Below, piece by piece: positions 4,730 to 7,483 of a stretch of 9,466 nucleotides of DNA. The stretch is from Candidatus Eiseniibacteriota bacterium (GTDB lineage: Bacteria > Arandabacterota > Arandabacteria > JAGLYR01). Below the pieces are notes generated by a model. It saw only the letters and a program-made list of their open reading frames with translations. It did not search any database and was not told the DNA's origin. Both the position numbers and the translations under genes were made by a program. The stretch covers positions 1 through 9,466 of the forward strand of contig JAGLYR010000093.1 in the NCBI GenBank assembly GCA_023132135.1, written 5' to 3'. The first letter of the stretch is position 1, and every line of letters begins with the position of its first letter.

Positions 4730-5371
4730 ATGAATCTTGCCTTGGTTCAAGGTGCAAAGAGCCGCGAGGTCCTCCTGGCATGGGCGGACGAGGACCTGAT
4801 CCAGCTCGTTGATGGTGGGAATGATGACGCTTTTGAAATCATCGTTTCGCGGTTCAAGTCTCCCATCATCAACTTCCTGTACCGTATGCTGGGTGATCGC
4901 GACAGCGCGGAGGACCTGACACAGGAGACTTTCATCCGTGTCTACAGGAGCGCCGGGCGCTACAAGCGGATCGCCAAGTTCTCTACATGGATCTACACAA
5001 TAGCGGCTAACCTGGGGAAGAATGAACTGCGCAATCGCTCGCGCCGACACGGCGTGACGTGGGAAGATATGCAGAACTTCGATCTGAAAATGGACTGTGG
5101 CGCGCCCATGCAGCTGCACTCCCCCAAGACAGATCGGCTTGTGGAGCGGGAGGAGCTGAGAGCTGCTCTCAATCAGGCAATTGCGAGCTTGCCGGAAAAG
5201 TTCAAGGTTCCGTTCGTGATGAGGGATGTGGAAGGATTCGCGTACGAAGAGATCGCGGTGATGCTGAAGATGCCCAAGGGAACGGTGAAGTCGAGGATAA
5301 ACCGGGCGAGACTTCGTTTCAGAGAGTACCTGGAAGAGAACTGCGAGGAAGTGCTGCGGTTTGAGACGTGA
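4730..5371 (+). CDS. ECF sigma factor (RpoE-like, group 4 sigma-70)
   Basis: A 213-residue ECF sigma factor that directs RNA polymerase to a stress or envelope regulon. Region 2 spans about residues 18-106, with DSAEDLTQETFIRVY (58-72, the core-binding and -10 segment) and FSTWIYTIAANLGKNELR (84-101). A linker follows, then region 4 (about 143-201), with LPEKFKVPFVMRDVEGF and the helix-turn-helix YEEIAVMLKMPKGTVKSRINRAR that reads the -35 box. Length fits the family. The frame stays open to ATG 4601, with further ATGs at 4661, 4685 and 4712, but only 4730 has a good site (GGAGG, 4714-4718), and residues before it look non-homologous. The longest form would overlap the LolB-like gene by 14 bases. 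It is followed after 29 bases by its anti-sigma gene. Confidence 0.9.
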   Translation: MNLALVQGAKSREVLLAWADEDLIQLVDGGNDDAFEIIVSRFKSPIINFLYRMLGDRDSAEDLTQETFIRVYRSAGRYKRIAKFSTWIYTIAANLGKNELRNRSRRHGVTWEDMQNFDLKMDCGAPMQLHSPKTDRLVEREELRAALNQAIASLPEKFKVPFVMRDVEGFAYEEIAVMLKMPKGTVKSRINRARLRFREYLEENCEEVLRFET

Positions 5372-5400
5372 CGGTTCGGTTGCGAGGGAGTGGTGGACAG

Positions 5401-6033
5401 ATGAATTGCAAGAAAACCCGATCGTTGTTCGGGCGATTCCTGGATCAGGGACTGGAACAGCGGAAGGCCCGCTCATTGATGCTGCATCTGGATTCGTGTC
5501 CTGAGTGCGCCCGCGCGTGGGAGCGATTCCGGCTGAGTCTCGAGGAATTGAAGAACCTCGAGCGGATTGAGCCGTCGCCGGCCTTTGAGTCGGAGCTGTG
5601 GCGGCGTATTCACACCGGGGAATCGGAGTCGGCCTGGCGCAGTGCCTGGGCCCGTGTCGAGAGCGGTGCTCTGTGGACAAAAATGGCGGCGGCTGCGGCC
5701 GCGGCGGCCATAGTGGTGGGCGGTCTCCTGGTGAGCGGTGTTGTGGGTCCGGGGCGAGTAGCTGTCCCGGTGGTTGAGAACATGGATCCTGGGGCGACTA
5801 CTGCGCCCGTTCGAGGCGCGCTGGACTTCCATCGCGCGGATGTAGACCTGGTGGGAAACAACGAAGCGCTGTCGGACTGGGACATTCCCAATTGGGCCTG
5901 GACCCACTCGGGTCGTCTGGAGCGCGGATTCATGGGGATCGAGGGAATAATCGACACAGCGGAGGTCGAGCCGGAATTCGTGATCCGGCGTGTGAGCCAG
6001 AACTACAATTCGCCGCCGCGAAGAGCGTTCTAG
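5401..6033 (+). CDS. Membrane anti-sigma factor with zinc-finger (ZAS) domain
   Basis: A 210-residue single-pass membrane protein, very probably the antagonist of the ECF sigma factor just upstream. The N-terminal cytoplasmic domain has the ZAS signature: Cys3, then His29-L-D-S-Cys33-P-E-Cys36 (HxxxCxxC), which binds zinc and clamps the sigma factor. A Glu/Leu helical linker (43-93) leads to one membrane span at about 95-116 (an Ala run, then IVVGGLLVSGVVG). About 94 periplasmic residues follow with no family I recognise; they could sense the signal or serve as substrate for regulated proteolysis. GTG 5368 would overlap the sigma gene in GTGA fashion, but ATG 5401 is chosen because ZAS proteins typically begin MxC and GGTGGA lies 3 bases upstream. 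The TAG stop is the first triplet of the palindromic element that follows. Confidence 0.87.
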   Translation: MNCKKTRSLFGRFLDQGLEQRKARSLMLHLDSCPECARAWERFRLSLEELKNLERIEPSPAFESELWRRIHTGESESAWRSAWARVESGALWTKMAAAAAAAAIVVGGLLVSGVVGPGRVAVPVVENMDPGATTAPVRGALDFHRADVDLVGNNEALSDWDIPNWAWTHSGRLERGFMGIEGIIDTAEVEPEFVIRRVSQNYNSPPRRAF

Positions 6034-6214
6034 AGCCCGCATTTCTCACCAGGCTTCGTCGCGAGGTGTCGTAGCTGCCTGTGATGCCAAGGAATGCGAG
6101 CGAGGGGACCGGAAGCGTACTGGTCAGTACGTTGAGGATCACCGAGCGAGTATGACGCAGTCAGCATAGGCAGATCCGACGCCGCAGCAGATTCCTGGTG
6201 AGAAACGCGGGCTA
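6031..6214 (+). repeat. 184-base imperfect palindromic element (possible repeat family or structured RNA)
   Basis: This non-coding stretch is symmetric about base 6123. The outer arms at 6031-6053 and 6194-6214 pair at 20 of 21 positions, with two unpaired bases at 6034-6035; the core is CCCGCATTTCTCACCAGG against CCTGGTGAGAAACGCGGG. Inner arms 6066-6086 and 6162-6182 match at 16 of 21 positions, and two of the five differences become G-U pairs in RNA. The centre is a perfect CGTACTG/CAGTACG (6116-6131). CGAGCGAG is directly repeated at 6097-6104 and 6143-6150. No T tract follows, so it is not a classic terminator. It starts with the anti-sigma stop codon and ends 3 bases before the HtrA-like start codon. 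It could be a MITE- or REP-like element, a structured RNA or an mRNA control hairpin. Confidence 0.75.
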
Positions 6215-6217
6215 GCC

Positions 6218-7483
6218 ATGTTAGCCATTCATCCATTCACCCACTCATTCTTCCGAGCGTTGCTCTGTGCCCTCGCTCCGGTGCTGTTCATATTTCCCGG
6301 GGCATTCGCAATTGCGATCGCAGACGATGCCGGATTTGCTGCAGAGCACCTGGGCGAACAGATCGCCGCCGCTCAGCACTCCATTGTTGTTGTCATATCC
6401 CAACCACAGGTGTCCGGGCATGGGCTGGATGAGCGGGCAAGGCCGCGTCGTCTGGTTGGTTGCGGAGTGGTTGTGGATGGGCAAGGCCATCTCCTCACGA
6501 CGGCCAGCGTTGTCCAGAGCGCGCGGCGCGTGATGGTTATTCCCATGGATGGCAAACCGATTCCGGGTGAAGTGATCGGGGTCGATCCCGCGCTGGATCT
6601 TGCCGTTGTGCGGTTACCGTCAGGTGCGGTGCCTGGGGTCGCTGTTGGGAACTCGGACAGTCTGCAGACGGGAGCGTGGGTAGCGCTGCTTGCGGCCGGG
6701 CATGGATCGGGTCCGATGATTTCCCTGGGTGTGCTGACGGGACGTTCGGAGCTGCCAATGGGGTATTGCGGGGAAGTGCTCCGGATCTACGCCCCGATCC
6801 GTCCTGGAGACAGTGGCGCCGTTCTCCTGAACGAGAAGGGGGAGGCCGTCGGGATTGTGTCGGCGACTCTTGAGATCCCGTCGCGGTCCGGCGACTCAGG
6901 GGAGAGGAGACGGGATGCTCCGCGCGGTTGCGCGTGGGCACTCGGTGACTATGTCGATGGAATTGCGATTCCCATGAATGATGCTCTGTCCGCGGCCTGG
7001 GAGGTGATTGAACGGGGCCCCATACATCGCGGTTTCCTGGGCGTCACGGTTCAACAGTTGAGCCCGCGGCTCAAAGAGGTTCTGGGTCTGGAGAGCGGCC
7101 TGGGCGCCTACGTCCTGCGTGTGGTTGACGGCGGTCCGGCAGCCGAGGCTGGAATCCGTATGGGGGACGTGATCGTGGGGGTGGACGGTGGTTCTCTGGC
7201 GGATTTGGGCGGGTTCCACCGCTGGGTTGTCGAGGCTTCACCAGGGGATCGACGGCAGATCACGGTGGTGGCGGGCGGCCAGAGGCGAGATCTGGCGGTG
7301 CGGATCGGGGACTCTGCGCAGTTCGTACACGAATTCCTGCCCGGCTTTACCCTGCAACCCGGTTGGTCCACTTCCAGCCTCGCTGCAACCAGCGTCCGCC
7401 GCAATGAGCTCGAAGGCGAAGTGGATCTTCTCAAGATCCGTCTCGAAGAGCTGGAGCGCCGCCTCGAGCAGCTCGATCGTTAG
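6218..7483 (+). CDS. HtrA/DegP-like trypsin-PDZ protein lacking the catalytic His
   Basis: A 421-residue exported protein with HtrA architecture. Residues 1-36 look like a signal peptide (Arg13, then a long hydrophobic core ending AIAIADD). The trypsin-like domain (about 50-255) has GCGVVVDGQGHLLTTASVV where HtrA proteases have a G(S/T)G...TNxHVV motif: the catalytic His position is Ser97. The Asp (DPALDLAVV, Asp127) and the nucleophile loop (PGDSGA, Ser199) remain; GDSGA differs from the usual GNSGG. DGIAIPMNDA and RGFLGVTVQQL lead into one PDZ domain (about 270-365). A short linker and a charged coiled coil (about 394-421) end the chain. HtrA proteins degrade or refold envelope proteins; without His this one may be a scaffold, chaperone or sensor. 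It lies behind a sigma/anti-sigma pair, as expected for a stress regulon member. The start lacks a clear ribosome-binding site. Confidence 0.87.
   Translation: MLAIHPFTHSFFRALLCALAPVLFIFPGAFAIAIADDAGFAAEHLGEQIAAAQHSIVVVISQPQVSGHGLDERARPRRLVGCGVVVDGQGHLLTTASVVQSARRVMVIPMDGKPIPGEVIGVDPALDLAVVRLPSGAVPGVAVGNSDSLQTGAWVALLAAGHGSGPMISLGVLTGRSELPMGYCGEVLRIYAPIRPGDSGAVLLNEKGEAVGIVSATLEIPSRSGDSGERRRDAPRGCAWALGDYVDGIAIPMNDALSAAWEVIERGPIHRGFLGVTVQQLSPRLKEVLGLESGLGAYVLRVVDGGPAAEAGIRMGDVIVGVDGGSLADLGGFHRWVVEASPGDRRQITVVAGGQRRDLAVRIGDSAQFVHEFLPGFTLQPGWSTSSLAATSVRRNELEGEVDLLKIRLEELERRLEQLDR

Follow-up and report, generated by a model that had tools for sequence, protein, structure and literature searches.

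The palindrome between the anti-sigma factor and HtrA genes

The window (the whole stretch of 9466 nucleotides that was analysed) carries on its plus strand a gene for an anti-sigma factor with a zf-HC2 zinc finger (5368–6033), followed by a gene for an HtrA-like trypsin/PDZ protease (6218–7483, with its ATG at 6218). The gap between these two host genes is occupied by a palindrome of 176 bp (6036–6211; CCCGC...GCGGG) with the tetranucleotide CTAG on either side. The left CTAG (6030–6033) includes the anti-sigma stop codon, TAG at 6031–6033, and the right CTAG (6212–6215) lies 2 bases 5' of the HtrA ATG. Two extra bases, AG (6034–6035), stand between the left CTAG and the element, while in other copies CTAG directly abuts CCCGC; they probably represent a small duplication that postdates insertion. 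A preliminary description had noticed that a palindrome fills this gap, which is confirmed here with refined borders; it had placed the start of the element at the anti-sigma TAG, but the element proper starts at 6036 and the TAG sits in the left target copy.

Several parts can be distinguished within the palindrome (coordinates refer to the plus strand, on which the fold with GA/GA loops forms). The left terminal inverted repeat, CCCGCATTTCTCACCAGG (6036–6053), is identical to the ends of IS1380-family elements, and its counterpart on the right lies at 6194–6211 (CCCGCGTTTCTCACCAGG on the minus strand). Next come the two halves of a basal motif, TTCGTCGCGAGG (6055–6066), a near-invariant internal loop, and CCGCAGCAGA (6182–6191). 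They are followed by the two halves of a stem with tandem GA mismatches, located at 6092–6103 (GA at 6092–6093, 6098–6099 and 6102–6103) and 6144–6155 (GA at 6144–6145, 6148–6149 and 6154–6155). The centre is a core hairpin with a strongly covarying stem, GGA-AGCGTACTG..CAGTACGTT-GA (6111–6135). The outer arms (6034–6053 and 6194–6213, complementary at 95% over 20 bases) and the perfect 7-base centre (CGTACTG at 6116–6122 and CAGTACG at 6125–6131, centred at 6123.5) had been correctly described beforehand. The inner arms, for which 16 of 21 positions had been reported to match with wobble pairs, do pair, but they are not a separate repeat: they belong to the longer regular stem with tandem GA mismatches.

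Folding of this stretch is far beyond chance. With RNA energies the palindrome reaches −97.5 kcal/mol (z = −6.9; 0 of 200 shuffled sequences equalled it) and its complement −85.3 (z = −4.8); with DNA energies the z-scores are −4.4 and −5.6, the two strands of the complete window element having equal energies. The element codes for no transposase or sizeable gene, the only open reading frames being short or overlapping mechanical ones.

The same junction in relatives

The sigma, anti-sigma and HtrA genes are adjacent in relatives too. In seven of these (L156, L158, L160, L161, L167, L168 and L170; L155 was left out, the match to its anti-sigma gene having started before the start codon) no more than 14 bp separate the anti-sigma stop codon from the first plausible start of HtrA; this gap has a Shine-Dalgarno sequence and lacks the palindrome. 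In all seven the anti-sigma gene ends, like that of the window, with TTC and a stop codon, and in L156 this end is TTCTAG. The most fitting interpretation of the window junction, TTC TAG (element) CTAG CC ATG, is thus that the stop codon received an insertion. Since the seven relatives come from other genera, the precise form of the junction before insertion in the window's own lineage can only be inferred.

Dispersed copies and their insertion sites

The preliminary description had suggested that copies be sought in the same genome and in related ones. This search, carried out mostly on draft assemblies, yielded dozens of dispersed copies, so the palindrome is not specific to this locus. The window's own genome (G000; 345 contigs) contains about 47 full or partial matches, among them seven full-length copies (L001–L007) with 83–100% identity. 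A covariance model of the interior (R1) found 33 matches in G000, 59 in G006, 38 in G042 and 21 in Acanthopleuribacter pedis. Other genomes from different phyla contributed at least 120 stretches with the exact 21-base end; among the matches listed are Gammaproteobacteria, Acidobacteria, Planctomycetota, Verrucomicrobia and others. Carriage by phages or plasmids was considered and rejected, as no plasmid or phage record searched with the palindrome gave a match. Terminal inverted repeats are thus combined with several dispersed copies, as expected for a MITE. G000 also contains shorter palindromes (L011, L014, L016 and L022) of 123, 62 and 54 bp in which the hairpin centre is missing symmetrically; the first two sizes follow steps of 61 bp, and these forms probably arose via deletion between short direct repeats. 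A pair of ends 1.2 kb apart (L039) was examined and discarded: it encloses ordinary genes, without a transposase.

In a first set of copies, which was biased by its search pattern, the flanking tetranucleotides were mostly CTAG, CTAA, TTAG or TTAA. A second, unbiased set was drawn from copies found by interior or whole-element models with the flanks disregarded. Identical tetranucleotides were present on both sides in 21 of its 55 paired-end copies (the flanks differ in the other 34), against 8.5 after shuffling (maximum of 16 in 2000 shuffles), and YTAR was present at the left end of 35 copies and at the right end of 40. The window copy itself has CTAG on both sides, with the extra AG at the left. 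Both a target-site duplication and an empty site are associated with the element. Insertions are far more frequent between convergent genes (20) than between divergent genes (3). Because CTAG contains TAG, element ends often provide stop codons: 32% of them form the stop codon of an open reading frame of at least 80 codons, against 17% at other CTAG sites. The exact fit between stop and start codons in the window is explained in the same way, the target CTAG being that of the anti-sigma stop codon.

Terminal repeats and potential mobilizing elements

Ends equal to those of an IS1380 element were found at several loci. At L139 an IS1380-family transposase gene (NCBIfam NF033539, 405 bits) lies between the same ends as those of the palindrome. 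G000 has a single IS1380 transposase gene (PF13701, E = 1e-155), at L151, which is followed by the same right end; its left end has been replaced by an IS3-like element, as judged from the open reading frames (L151:262–1437 and 1489–2868, contig C139, the element being truncated at the left). The resident mobilizer of G000 thus looks broken, and no intact autonomous partner was found in its assembly, which, being split into 345 contigs, may lack a complete copy that the genome has. G287 has two complete IS1380 copies with the terminal repeat CCCGGATTATGCAT between CTAG duplications (L326/L331), and ends of this type are also present among its palindromes. A PF13701 search of the copy-bearing genomes gave no match in 9 of 14, including A. 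pedis, so past or intermittent mobilization must be assumed there. IS1380 serves as the prokaryotic outgroup of piggyBac, which duplicates TTAA or variants of it, TTAG and CTAA among them (PMC10813416).

The interior is absent from every IS1380 element seen, and the interior model had no match in L139 or L151. An origin by internal deletion of an IS1380 element was consequently rejected, and the MITE is no simple deletion derivative of the IS1380 elements seen.

A covarying fold on one strand

Interiors from G000, G006, G003 and G042 align at 69–96% despite the different ends of the G006 copies (CCCGGATTATTCAC). Their consensus fold, on the strand corresponding to the window's plus strand, is a long stem made of short helices split by 2×2 loops, mostly GA/GA, with an energy of −62.0 against −37.3 on the complement. 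Among interior pairs, G.U occupies 40 cells of the alignment and A.C only 1, whereas the terminal repeats have 6 and 7, respectively. A constraint on double-stranded DNA would give symmetry; this asymmetry is the one expected from selection on one folded strand.

The fold was analysed in 41 copies, including those of A. pedis (Acidobacteriota). Pairing is maintained in 94.6% of cells and 26 of 36 pairs are double-changed; the copies were aligned by means of the model itself, a procedure biased towards the structure, and the pair counts ignore phylogeny. Covariation is 0.503 against 0.207 ± 0.009 in shuffled alignments. None of 500 shuffles matched the observed fold values, with the exception of the number of pair types (2 of 500), and structures slid along the alignment pair at 23–45%. 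An independent MAFFT alignment (A1) gave 22 double-changed pairs. In the 41-copy set G.U and A.C occupy 83 and 16 cells. The loops are conserved as well: GA/GCA or GA/GTA in 41 of 41 copies, one GA/GA loop in 36 of 41, and GGA or GCA opposite GA in 37 of 41. The interior is thus more than decayed arms; it is a covarying fold on one strand.

Tandem mismatches of this kind are found beyond the present family. In other IS1380-ended elements of unrelated sequence, GA-NN-GA mismatches around the stem occur in 39 of 106 (0–2 in shuffles), although elements of the same family are not independent and the fairer figure is 14 of 37 clusters. Control dinucleotides gave at most 1, except TC (the complement) and the self-pairing CG. 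One such family is a 240-bp IS1380-ended MITE of Gammaproteobacteria (L060, L051, L083, L092 and others), with an unrelated interior and GA-NN-GA mismatches around a CGTAGC hairpin.

The interior was found in 3 of 8 genomes of the window's own phylum with model R1 and, with a second model (R2), in 2 of 7 genomes of the phylum of G042 and 45 of 297 genomes of that of A. pedis (Acidobacteriota). It is joined to at least three variants of the terminal repeats, and different ends (TTTCTCAC, TTATTCAT and TTATGCAT types) can accompany the same interior in a single genome (G343, G303 and G287). The core GGAGGCGTAC..GTACGTCGAG is also found in palindromes whose ends are of a quite different kind (GGGCTGTTGAAAACC, CCTAAAGTGTGCG; L215 and L212 in G003; L244, L248 and L254 in A. 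pedis); the structured core may extend past IS1380-ended elements.

Is the fold expressed as RNA?

The folded strand runs in the same direction as the neighbouring gene in 45 cases and in the opposite direction in 47; this absence of orientation bias makes control of HtrA an unlikely purpose of the fold. A sigma-70-like promoter was looked for inside the element and not found, and the stem is followed by AGCCATG instead of the T run of an intrinsic terminator. RNA energies favour the folded strand in 40 of 41 copies and DNA energies in 37 of 41, so for the interior the two do not discriminate. Rfam gave no match above the gathering cut-off and a permissive search was also without a family; L029 had two sub-threshold matches to EBv-sisRNA-2, both beyond the borders of the element and regarded as chance. 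No earlier description was found in open-licence PMC papers, although the wider literature may hold one.

GC-skew counts for the folded strand were 11 of 21 in A. pedis, and 3 of 11 and 1 of 9 in two other genomes. In G066 and G307 (copies L306–L325), 16 of 20 folded strands coincide with the G-poor strand, against 10 of 21 in A. pedis, which may reflect a replication-strand effect.

Origin and role of the element

The palindrome is very probably one insertion of a dispersed non-autonomous MITE, the ends of which are recognized in trans by IS1380-family (piggyBac-like) transposases. That it might be a non-autonomous mobile palindrome had been among the initial proposals, and it is the one supported by the dispersed copies, the target duplications, the empty site in relatives and the matching IS1380 ends. 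The element would have inserted into the CTAG forming the anti-sigma stop codon, presumably through an IS1380 transposase acting in trans; duplication of these four bases would have retained the stop codon and moved HtrA 184 bp downstream. Much more tentatively, the conserved folded strand may serve the element's own spread rather than HtrA regulation. Our preference, on slender grounds, is for a single-strand DNA hairpin that might bring the two ends together or protect the element.

The main rival concerns the nature of the fold and is compatible with a MITE: a structured RNA from the element could act in trans, for the element or for the host, the fold being selected as RNA. The proposal of a structured RNA has gained in that the interior is indeed a covarying single-strand fold, which covaries strongly and tolerates G.U on just one strand, and RNA energies favour that strand; but DNA energies do so too, and the lack of a sigma-70-like promoter, of an orientation bias towards transcription and of an Rfam match all weigh against it, leaving it a possible but rather doubtful reading. 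A cis-acting hairpin regulating HtrA relative to the sigma/anti-sigma pair, which had also been envisaged, would suit a conserved stress-type operon in which co-transcription is expected, and the only Shine-Dalgarno-like sequence before HtrA, GGTGAG, lies in the right arm, where it would be paired. Such a role is nevertheless very unlikely, given the dozens of copies at other sites, which the preliminary description had itself named as grounds for dismissing a locus-specific control role, the seven relatives without a palindrome at this junction, the folded strand's indifference to gene direction and the missing terminator. The insertion may all the same have the incidental consequence of lowering HtrA translation, through this pairing of the nearest GGTGAG.

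Quasi-palindromes are known to undergo correction by template switching or gene conversion, and this process acting between the arms, instead of selection on the fold, would likewise produce double changes. Under such correction, however, the GA/GA and GA/GCA mismatches should have disappeared, yet they are conserved, and the one-strand preference for G.U rather than A.C seen inside the element would not be expected; it is thus an improbable explanation of the arm likeness. A further candidate, a REP/REPIN pair whose mobility depends on a RAYT (a Y1 tyrosine transposase), would also be palindromic, multicopy and mostly intergenic. Yet only one weak 112-aa Y1_Tnp fragment, without these ends, was detected in the genome, with no RAYT flanked by the repeat, and the 4-bp target duplications and DDE-type ends point elsewhere; this candidate was rejected as hardly credible.

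Returning to the MITE, we consider it about an even chance that it belongs to a class spread over several phyla, in which a conserved one-strand fold with tandem GA loops is combined with ends exchanged to suit different IS1380/piggyBac-like transposases, selection keeping the fold and not the sequence or the ends. Palindromic MITEs are usually taken for decayed transposon ends, but here the interior seems to be kept by selection as a fold of one strand, in several phyla and with varying ends. This makes a testable case of a mobile element that would carry a structure as its cargo, and models R1 and R2 detect the interior blind to the ends. The locus also illustrates that a precise stop-to-start palindrome within an operon can stem from target preference, and not from regulation.

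Comparison with known elements

ERIC, Correia/NEMIS and YPAL (PMC10969869; PMC3733652) are similarly small and geneless, have terminal repeats, occur in many copies beside genes and form strong hairpins when transcribed. The present element differs in its IS1380-type ends, its 4-bp YTAR duplication, its lack of orientation bias and an interior fold with GA/GA loops that covaries across phyla; it had no match in Rfam or in the text of open-licence papers. REP/REPIN sequences with RAYT (PMC3733652) are also palindromes dispersed in several phyla, but the present element is much longer, has target duplications and is not associated with a RAYT. Chunjie, a 235-bp MITE of Geobacter uraniireducens (cited in PMC10969869), resembles it in being a MITE placed in an operon. 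In its ends the element resembles the IS1380 family, with its terminal repeats starting with CCC and its 4-bp YTAR duplication (PMC10813416); resident IS1380 elements have the same terminal repeat as the palindrome, which differs from them in having no transposase and an interior unrelated to that of any IS1380 element seen.
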